Below are positions 1,687-3,627 of a DNA stretch of 64,000 nt, piece by piece; the stretch's first letter is position 1, and each line of letters begins with the position of its first letter. The DNA is from Rhodocytophaga rosea (GTDB lineage Bacteria > Bacteroidota > Bacteroidia > Cytophagales > 172606-1): the NCBI RefSeq assembly GCF_010119975.1, contig NZ_CP048222.1, forward strand, positions 2,005,501 to 2,069,500, read 5' to 3'. Made by a program: the position numbers and the translations under genes. Under the pieces are notes generated by a model. The model ran no database searches and was not told the origin of the DNA. It saw only the letters and a list, made by a program, of their open reading frames with translations.

Positions 1687-2044
1687 TTTGTATAGATAAG
1701 GTTGTTTAGTTGTTTTGATGATTTGTATCTAATCTAATCAATAGTGGGAAGATACTATAATTTTTCAGTGCTTACAAATTCTGATAAGTCATCCTTGATA
1801 AGTAAAGAATTAGAAGATAATTGGATACACATTATAGGCGGTGCCTGGTTTGCCCAACTGTCAAAGTCTGGCTTATAAAAAAGTGGACAAAAAGTTAAGC
1901 TGTAAAAAATTTAAATTTTAATGATTCTTCCATTTATGTAGGGTTAAGCACAAAAGCTTACCCGACCGGGGTCTGCTTTGGGCAAGTTGTAAGATAGATC
2001 TATTGGTTAGCTCATGAGTGATCATTTGATCTTGCTACATTTGG
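1687..2044. other. Intergenic region between cold-shock gene and IS
   Basis: No credible coding frame. It holds the leader of the leftward cold-shock gene and, from 1883, a sequence resembling the IS terminal repeat at 2045 (listed separately). The stretch 1901-2044 has no partner elsewhere in the window that I could see. Confidence 0.5.
1883..1900. repeat. Extra IS-end-like sequence
   Basis: The 18 bases from 1883 (GTGGACAAAAAGTTAAGC) match the reverse complement of the right IS end (3311-3328) at 16 of 18 positions, better than the inner left end at 2045 (15 of 18). Either the true left end of the element is here, giving about 1446 bp, or this is a solo end left by an earlier related insertion. 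Confidence 0.5.
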
Positions 2045-2078
2045 GTGGACATTAAGTTAAGAGAAAATACTTAACTTA

Positions 2079-2360
2079 ATGAAAATGGGACAAAGAAGAA
2101 AATTCGACAAGGAGTTCAAACTAATGACTGTTGAACTTAGTAAGAGCAGAAAAAATTTAGTAGATCTGGCTAAAGAATTGGATATCAAAATTGGATTGAT
2201 TTATCGCTGGCGCCGTGAGTTTTTAGACAAGAGGGAGGGAAGTTTTCCTGGCCATGGAAAACCAAAACAAACCCCTGAAGAAGCAGAAATAGCCCGTCTA
2301 AAGAAGGCATTAAAGGATGCAGAAATGGAAAGGGATATGGAGCCGATGCTCACAACGTAG
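2079..2360 (+). pseudogene. IS3-family transposase OrfA, truncated by an insertion
   Basis: 93 residues to the in-frame TAG at 2358. The N-terminal helix-turn-helix (about 6-55, with KFDKEFKLMTVEL and YRWRREF) binds the IS ends. Family members end in a leucine-zipper region reading ERDILKKAVSIFSRNDG. Here the frame is broken right after ERD by a 30-nt insert (2339-2368) that supplies the stop; the normal C-terminus then resumes in the same frame (AAG at 2373 through the TAA at 2424-2426). The product therefore lacks the dimerisation tail and cannot reach the frameshift site at 2369. Confidence 0.85.
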
Positions 2361-2368
2361 GCAGGTCC
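2339..2368 (+). repeat. 30-nt hairpin-like insert, copy 1
   Basis: This block interrupts the conserved OrfA coding sequence. It begins GGAGCCGATGCTC and ends GGCAGGTCC. Read in the opposite orientation, the insert at 2806-2835 matches it at 25 of 30 positions. It follows the pentamer GATAT. It can be drawn as a weak stem-loop (CGATG against CAACG, one mismatch). It introduces the TAG that truncates OrfA. Confidence 0.75.
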
Positions 2369-2375
2369 AAAAAAG
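2369..2375 (+). promoter_or_regulatory. A6G slippery heptamer of IS3-type -1 frameshifting
   Basis: The heptamer AAAAAAG is read as A AAA AAG in the orfA frame, the classic signal at which IS3-family ribosomes slip by -1 to make the OrfAB transposase. The orfB frame is indeed -1 relative to orfA here. In this copy the signal is silent because orfA stops at 2358, eleven bases upstream. Confidence 0.7.
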
Positions 2376-2455
2376 GCGGTCAGCATCTTTTCCAGGAACG
2401 ATGGGAGATATTCCAATTCATAAAGGATAATCACACTGTATACCCCATTGAGAAG

Positions 2456-3316
2456 ATGTGCAAAGCCTTTCAAGTAAGTAAAAGTGGATATTATGGATGG
2501 ATAAACAGTGAGCCATCTAAACGAGCTACAGAGAACCGGGAAATTCTTCAACAGATCAGAGTGATCCATAAGGAGAGTGGCCAGACCTATGGTAGCCCAA
2601 GAATCAGTAAAGCCTTGAAAGCGAATAACATTTCAGTTTCCAGACCCAGGGTTGCCCGCTTAATGAAGCAGGCTGAGCTTAGGGCAAAAAGAATTAAAAG
2701 GTATAAGGTCACTACGGATTCAAAGCATAGCTATCCGGTGAGTGAAAATCTACTGGATCGAAATTTTACAGCTAATGCAACAGGTCAGGCCTGGGTATCA
2801 GACATGGACCTGCAGACGATGTCAGCATCGGGTCCACTTATATCAGAACCATTACAGGTTGGCTATATCTTACGGTGGTACTGGATTTGGCAGACAGAAA
2901 GATTATTGGCTCTCGCCTTGAGTAAAACCATGAAGGCCAAAGAGACGACAATAGCAGCATTAAAAATGGCTATAAAAAACAGGCCCGTGATCCAACCTCT
3001 AATATTTCATTCAGACAGGGGTATACAGTATGCCTGTGATGAATTTAGGCAAGAATTAGGTACATATCCTCTTATTAAGCCAAGCATGAGTCGAAAAGGG
3101 AATTGTTGGGATAATGCTGTCGCAGAAAGCTTCTTTAAGACCCTGAAAGTGGAATGTGTATATGATTATAAGTTTGCCCATCAGCAGCAAGCGGCTACCA
3201 CTGTTTTTGAATATATAGAAATCTGGTACAACAGGAAAAGACTGCATTCCTCTCTGGGATATAGAACACCAGCCCAGATGGAGCAACTTTTAAATCAATA
3301 TGTGTTAGTTGCTTAA
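2456..3316 (+). pseudogene. IS3-family transposase OrfB (integrase core), frame-scrambled
   Basis: 286 residues from ATG 2456; the native frame begins further upstream, near 2390, and is reached by frameshifting. The N-terminal HTH_21-like part (YGWINSEPS, YGSPRISKAL) is normal. The core keeps WVSD, HSDRG and NAVAESF, so all three acidic residues are present. Between the first Asp and LSKTMKAKE the sequence is wrong: a 30-nt insert at 2806-2835 (net +29) shifts the frame, so the conserved strand ITYIRTITGWLYLTVVLDL is encoded but out of frame. One extra base near 2911-2914 restores it. The protein is open but its first core strands are replaced by nonsense, so it is probably inactive. Confidence 0.85.
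2806..2835 (-). repeat. 30-nt hairpin-like insert, copy 2 (inverted relative to copy 1)
   Basis: Starts GGACC and ends GGTCC, with an inner stem CGATG/CATCG around the loop TCAG. The outer and inner stems are separated on one side only, by TGCAGA. It follows GACAT, resembling the GATAT before copy 1. The reverse complement is 25/30 identical to the block at 2339-2368. Removing it, apart from one base, restores the conserved OrfB reading SDITYIRT. Confidence 0.8.
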
Positions 3317-3328
3317 TTTATTGTCCAC

Positions 3329-3627
3329 AATTTTGTTGCAAGTCCACATTAGGAAAGTATATCCACAAATGATTCCTTATGATAAACTCTTCCAATTGAA
3401 GGCAGAGACTTATTCTGTAGAAGTCTATAACACCAGCGTAAGGCACTCCTTGATCCTCTTTGAAAAGGAAAACTTCTTTTCTATTCTAAGTCTTGGCTTA
3501 TGTTATTTTGATTGTATTGCATATTAACAATATTTGAATAACAACACCTTGAAAAAGTGGCAATATACAATGGCTGTTTGAGCTAGACTTAGTATGCACT
3601 TTAAACTAAACAACTCAAATATTTTTA
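3329..3627. other. Non-coding stretch between IS and tRNA fragment
   Basis: No frame with convincing composition or homology. Another GTGGAC word (inverted) occurs at 3342-3347. AT-rich and probably relic DNA. Confidence 0.4.

Follow-up and report, generated by a model that had tools for sequence, protein, structure and literature searches.

How do two related blocks of 30 nt come to lie, in opposite orientation, in both reading frames of a single insertion sequence (IS)? The question is raised by an IS3-family element of Rhodocytophaga rosea, in a stretch of 64,000 nt (contig NZ_CP048222.1, positions 2,005,501 to 2,069,500) that is referred to below as the window and whose relevant features are collected in Table 1. 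The two blocks, GGAGCCGATGCTCACAACGTAGGCAGGTCC (block 1) and GGACCTGCAGACGATGTCAGCATCGGGTCC (block 2), are present where a preliminary description of this DNA had placed them; that description was also right that block 1 agrees with the reverse complement of block 2 at 25 of 30 positions and that a GAYAT pentamer stands 5' of each, GATAT before block 1 and GACAT before block 2.

Table 1. Features of the interrupted IS3-family element, in window coordinates
Feature	Position	Strand	Remarks
IS3-family insertion sequence	2027..3346	+	1320 nt; eight genome copies, ends and flanks
CATT repeats bordering the IS	2023-2026 and 3347-3350		
orfA	2079..2360	+	stop codon TAG within block 1; Pfam HTH_Tnp_1, 2.2e-14
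Element 1 (block 1; class 1, type A)	2339..2368	+	orfA-end site, 5' of the A6G run
orfB open frame (P0001)	2369..3316	+	315 codons; rve/HTH_21 transposase (Pfam), one segment scrambled
AAAAAAG run	2369..2375	+	seen in the sequence
GTCAGCATC	2379..2387	+	complementary at 8 of 9 positions to GATGCTCAC of element 1; covaries in some other copies
Element 2 (block 2; class 1, type B, inverted)	2806..2835	-	SD(I)/TY site; hairpin fold
GGCTCTCGCC	2908..2917	+	+1 change at the GWA site; another element is present there in relatives

The interrupted IS3 element

The IS shows the features of its family, terminal repeats as well as an HTH domain in orfA and an rve transposase domain in orfB (Pfam), and its AAAAAAG stretch is what we take to be the usual IS3 run for the -1 frameshift between orfA and orfB. 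Seven further copies, reported at 100% identity, are present in the 8.98 Mb genome (one of them, L008, is 1 nt shorter); all contain both blocks, which rules out a local assembly error. A target duplication flanks the window copy and, judged by eye, three others of the eight.

Two relatives, L014 and L015, have open orfA and orfB and lack the blocks. Measured against them, the blocks do have a length of 30 nt, but they are not the exact 30-nt additions once proposed, the net gain being 27 (or 29) nt for block 1 and 29 nt for block 2. Block 1 replaces three nucleotides (ATT) relative to L014 and L015, or one if the ancestor read GATATTAAAAAAGG, and block 2 replaces one relative to the empty sites of L009, L036 and L061. 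Nor does removal of the blocks restore the expected proteins, as had been supposed: OrfB is not recovered by taking out block 2, a further +1 change being located at 2908-2917, and it is block 2 and this change jointly that keep orfB open, with a core segment scrambled. The sequence at this GWA site is possibly what an element left behind when it was lost. The term 'hairpin-like' suits block 2, whose predicted RNA fold is better than those of shuffled sequences (z of -2.0 and -2.3 for its two strands), but not block 1, which folds no better than shuffles (z of 0.2 and 0.0).

A restricted family of small elements

The search for further copies that had been proposed was productive. A strict pattern, the 30-mer with up to three mismatches, was found at 27 places in this genome and at none in the reversed-sequence control, and a looser pattern gave 43 places and 1, respectively. 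A generic GGACCN{16,24}GSTCC pattern was rejected as evidence, since it is not enriched in the own genome (78/70 among the matches listed, which extend to ~6.5 Mb) and the reversed control is higher (215/213). The class-1 pattern is carried by 4 of 59 genomes, namely the own genome, G001, G002 and G004, the other 55 being without it, and the pattern of a second sequence class (class 2) was found in 4 of 194 genomes, which are the same four. In a collection of species genomes, from which the window's own genome is possibly absent, exact class-1 matches occurred only in R. aerolata and two Cytophagales metagenome-assembled genomes (MAGs).

The own genome and three relatives yielded 97 distinct element contexts, 26-34 nt in length and 62 of them exactly 30 nt, a set of GGA..TCC elements drawn from loci that surround IS or element matches rather than from a full-genome map, in which some contexts are closely related to each other. 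In compiling it, 30 of 127 pattern rows were discarded by hand as chance matches and nine orientations were flipped by hand. Many of the elements fit a layout of six 5-nt blocks, x-a-b-a'-b'-x', which block 1 does not. The outer 5-bp stem is mostly GGACC/GGTCC, with the compensating variants GGATC/GATCC and GAATC/GATTC, and the inner stems are highly variable in sequence while their complementarity is kept in interleaved order. For 76 unique elements the interleaved stem score averaged 5.26, as against 2.52 in shuffles, and reached at least 6 in 47 of them, compared with 22.9% of shuffles. There is an excess of nested stems as well (41 of 76 versus 33.2%), and 22 of the 76, block 1 included, have no interleaved stems at the threshold used. 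Since the inner stems are too close together for all of them to form easily, we read them as two alternative 5-bp hairpins, either of which could form inside the closed outer stem. Elements of types C and D, folded singly, do no better than shuffles. A bias towards folding in the RNA sense was considered and rejected: G-U versus A-C tolerance in the gene sense, which was assigned from open-frame length and in nine cases by hand, was 23 versus 20, giving no sign of selection on the RNA strand.

When the layout alone was searched for, whatever the outer stem, 38 contexts were recovered; of those in which 14-15 of 15 pairs are present, all but L136:16930 and L087:1801 can be recognized as members of the family. 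In long loci the scan gave 21 matches versus 8 in shuffled sequence. At the GVQ/YAC site of L018 and L025 there is an insertion of 31-32 nt with the ends GCAAACC/GGTTTGC, indicating that other outer stems exist, and in IS1182-type copies (L058) a third hairpin insertion, with the different ends TTGACC...GGGTCAA, follows codon 310.

Junctions, host genes and insertion sites

Exactly one nucleotide was replaced in 36 of the 43 contexts with an empty homologue; the others replaced two nucleotides (four contexts), three (one), none (one, L088) or -2 (one), in a comparison of filled and empty sites that admitted gaps of -3 to 12 only. The base to the left of the element is T or C in 91 of the 97 contexts and that to its right is A or G in 95, and the lost base is not always T, as A, C and G are also lost. 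Because one nucleotide is usually replaced, a 30-nt element mostly adds a net 29 nt and breaks the frame. Insertions occur in all three codon phases, and the lengths of 26-34 nt translate into net gains in all frames; in-frame cases that stay open are the IS5-type L063 (28 nt), L088 (IS91) and orfB of L087/L131. Simple excision as a means of restoring the frame was rejected, most filled sites being short of one nucleotide, and inspection of the IS3 sites by eye revealed no matched take-off and landing codons.

What kind of gene is hit was assessed by eye for 33 contexts and by Pfam for 30 flanking frames. A transposase family was recognized in 21 of the 30 (L124 and one of those of L182 below the curated cut-off), nothing was recognized in the other nine, and no frame consisted mainly of another gene family. 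The hosts identified by Pfam are of the IS5, IS66, IS91, IS110, ISL3, Mutator (IS256), DDE_3, DDE_Tnp_1 and rve types, of which we take DDE_3 to stand for IS630 and rve for IS3, IS21 and IS481; IS1182 and IS4 types are presumably represented as well. Two contexts outside a recognized transposase frame apparently still belong to mobile DNA, L119:1898 lying in what by eye we take to be group II intron-like DNA, and L118:1751 presumably, again by eye, in an IS-like fragment next to a kinase gene. Among the contexts examined, then, the elements are confined to mobile DNA.

Within IS3 transposase genes the positions recur. A frameshift-aware alignment of 18 IS3 loci, some of them near-copies and two of them empty, revealed 59 long insertions, and 52 of these fall on eight positions, namely the orfA end, FIKE/N, KR/YGSP, VA/RLM, SDL/TYI, GWA/MS, GVQ/YAC and KGN/CWDN, which presumably lie in the neighbourhood of the catalytic residues. 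Even L019, L021 and L130, in which pieces align at ~35-52% to the reference, share KR/YGSP, SDL/TYI or KGN/CWDN. At the KGN site a class-3 element has opposite orientations in two related ISs (L117:3399 and L120:2635), as if inverted in place, and at the SDL/TYI site of L117 (~3080-3105) there is a repeat, GATCTGA..GATCTGA, that is a possible footprint.

Movement of the elements

The suggestion that the element is very small and either mobile or templated is well supported by many copies in several IS families and two genera, and by empty sites with precise junctions. In some diverged ISs the elements are identical where the flanks are 67-81% identical, as in L091/L187, L117/L116, L058/L075, L016/L017 (SDL/TYI), L010/L012 and window IS/L009; the pairs compared include mosaics and pseudogenes, and pairs of window-IS copies extend beyond the IS ends. 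Elsewhere, although flank divergence is comparable, the elements are separated by 1-11 nt or are unequal in length, a pattern that vertical drift would explain as well as homing would. Other element sequences recur across several sites and IS families, and from this it follows that the elements also move, although no insertion was caught in progress.

No mobilizing enzyme was found. Two candidate movers were considered and rejected, as their presence does not separate carriers from non-carriers. The Y1 transposase (PF01797) is found in all four carriers but also in two of the four non-carriers in the family, and reverse transcriptase matches occur in eight of eight genomes. Two Y1 loci with flanks inspected look like ordinary IS200, with no GGACC hairpins at their ends. 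Of the four Y1 loci listed, L192 has an element ~0.9 kb upstream, in IS66-like sequence, and L193 and L195 have only pattern matches, taken for chance. A separate observation concerns a palindrome with a 23-bp stem in an IS256 transposase gene (L132:8529-8585, genome ~68528-68584), which looks like templated palindrome formation; L157, 84% identical, differs there.

Discussion

The explanation to which we give about an even chance is a miniature mobile element that is defined by structure, is moved in trans and homes to cognate positions in the genes of transposases. The two blocks would be two members of a family of ~30-nt mobile DNA elements, defined largely by structure, which would lodge in transposase genes, at positions shared between relatives and in either orientation, usually taking the place of a single nucleotide flanked by a pyrimidine and a purine. 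As the elements carry no gene, some enzyme would have to act in trans, possibly on single-stranded hairpin DNA as the moving form. The elements would spread by riding on the IS and, along a homing route, by copying from one IS to the cognate site of another, sometimes reaching new sites; the interrupted transposase would usually not be made.

The difficulty for such an explanation is that some interrupted ISs may be alive, and for elements that simply kill their hosts, multi-copy interrupted ISs and low dN/dS are awkward. This is the ground of an intron- or byp-like alternative, possible though on balance unlikely, in which the element would be skipped in expression by a ribosome hop or by RNA removal, the transposases would still be made at some level and the ISs would stay mobile. 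Interrupted ISs are indeed present in several copies (eight of the window IS3, five of an IS1182 type and three of an IS256), and the element-free L014, L015, L167 and L157 were met once each, in searches not designed to count. Some are otherwise intact: the IS1182-type IS has three hairpin insertions and no other lesion over 477 codons in the copy aligned, L016 is free of lesions over 268 codons apart from its five insertions, and L019 has no lesion besides the native frameshift. Distant ISs share sites, and dN/dS is 0.14-0.20 in five interrupted IS3 pairs (dS ~0.9-1.5), as compared with 0.10 for the uninterrupted pair L014/L015; mosaics and pseudogenes are again among the pairs compared. L116, L120 and L122 share four elements and differ by synonymous to non-synonymous changes of 3:4 (L116/L120), 5:0 (L116/L122) and 3:5 (L120/L122); the four non-synonymous ones were judged to be artefacts of one-base indels, of which L122 has many, leaving by hand ~9 synonymous to 1 overall. 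Possible precedents, mentioned in a review, are a 29-nt hop in Prevotella loescheii and the 81 mitochondrial inserts of Magnusiomyces (PMC5009743).

However, at most filled sites at least one nucleotide is missing, so that removal of the element could not restore the ancestral codon, and retention of the last C would change Y to H, C to R and L to P. The use of all codon phases, the net gains in all frames and the lack of a G-U bias likewise argue against skipping, as do the dN/dS of 0.40 in the closest interrupted pair, the decay of many interrupted copies (L009, L012, L013, L017, L018 and L025) and the additional +1 break of the window IS. Copy number is weak as proof of activity, for the window IS looks dead on either reading and yet has its eight copies. 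We therefore place disruption with homing above skipping, without certainty. A bolder combination, in which gene-free, structure-only micro-elements home within transposase genes as parasites of parasites while their hosts keep moving through a low-rate bypass, as bacterial counterparts of byp at many sites, strikes us as unlikely.

It is improbable that the elements are a host defence, that is, that some system writes them into conserved transposase motifs and so silences all copies of an IS. Such a system would agree with the restriction to mobile DNA among the contexts examined, with the recurrent positions with all copies of an IS being seen filled alike, and with pairing between element and flank in some contexts. 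Element and downstream flank vary together at the orfA site in some copies (CTGAC/GTCAG, CCCAC/GTGGG and CTCAC/GTGAG), though not in L017 and L025, and complementarity of at least 7 nt to the right flank is found in 10 of the 97 contexts versus a permuted mean of 3.1. Yet as many as 7 were reached in the 40 permutations, the count is raised by contexts that are related to each other, and on the left flank there is no excess (1 versus 2.6 expected); complementarity to the flank was rejected as a general rule, being confined to a subset and to the right flank. No writer locus was found, and the in-frame insertions noted above keep long ORFs open.

Ordinary palindromic repeats of the REP, RPE or SDR kind that merely happen to lie in ISs are a quite improbable source. 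They are of similar size and palindromic, REPs inside genes are known and Bacteroidetes have CGTC repeats, but REPs, as portrayed in PMC3733652, are tagged with GTAG or CGTC at one end and lie mostly between genes. The elements described here follow only the pyrimidine/purine flank rule, lie in mobile DNA in the contexts examined, recur at the same sites and replace a nucleotide. A sequencing or assembly artefact, or chance similarity, is highly improbable: G002 and G004 are MAGs, L122 has its one-base indels and the generic pattern is not enriched, but the family is present both in a genome assembled as one contig and in that of an isolate (R. aerolata), and the reversed controls of the specific patterns gave 0 and 1.

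Mobile elements this small, shaped largely by their fold rather than their sequence and confined to genes of other mobile elements, would call for a revision of what mobility requires at the least and of how ISs are controlled. With dozens of sites available in both filled and empty form, the insertion reaction and any bypass are open to direct test.

Comparison with known systems

A literature search of limited depth found no such elements. The preliminary description had compared the blocks with Rickettsia palindromic elements and with hairpin byp elements of yeast mitochondria, and as an analogy this stands; as a closer equation it does not, because most elements are out of frame, no ordinary host gene frame was found to contain one and translational skipping stays putative. 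The mitochondria of Magnusiomyces capitatus have their 81 byp inserts in 12 of 15 protein genes, according to PMC5009743, where the Prevotella hop is mentioned and not followed further. The likeness lies in short blocks that break many reading frames; the elements described here differ in being bacterial, in residing in mobile-element genes as far as examined, and in usually replacing one nucleotide, so that removal leaves the coding sequence one nucleotide short in 36 of 43 cases.

Rickettsia palindromic elements (RPE) are palindromic mobile repeats within genes, inserted in frame and roughly 100-150 nt long. The present elements are likewise palindromic mobile repeats inside genes, but they measure ~30 nt and are mostly out of frame: the 62 of 97 that are 30 nt long mostly add a net 29 nt, and in-frame cases are few. 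REPs are described in PMC3733652 as palindromes of 20-40 nt for which movement in trans by Y1 transposases has been proposed. Small size, palindromy and a proposed movement in trans are shared with the REP/RAYT system, whereas the elements here have neither a GTAG nor a CGTC tag, only a pyrimidine before and a purine after them; the contexts examined lie in transposase frames or other mobile DNA, many elements have interleaved stems, their sites recur and no linked RAYT was found at the Y1 loci listed. As regards MITEs, an outer 5-bp inverted repeat is present, but no duplication was seen and one nucleotide is usually lost.

The small dispersed repeats of cyanobacteria are also very small and apparently mobile; they belong to another phylum, and we know of no targeting of transposase genes or one-nucleotide replacement among them. 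Inteins and homing introns insert recurrently at conserved motifs of homologous genes, a habit that the present elements share, though they have no coding capacity, any splicing is putative and the flank is one nucleotide short; at 30 nt they are also far below the known sizes of self-splicing introns. This real, unusual and restricted family of tiny elements in mobile genes lacks a defining feature of the known families compared where one could be tested, and on this ground we call it categorically new.
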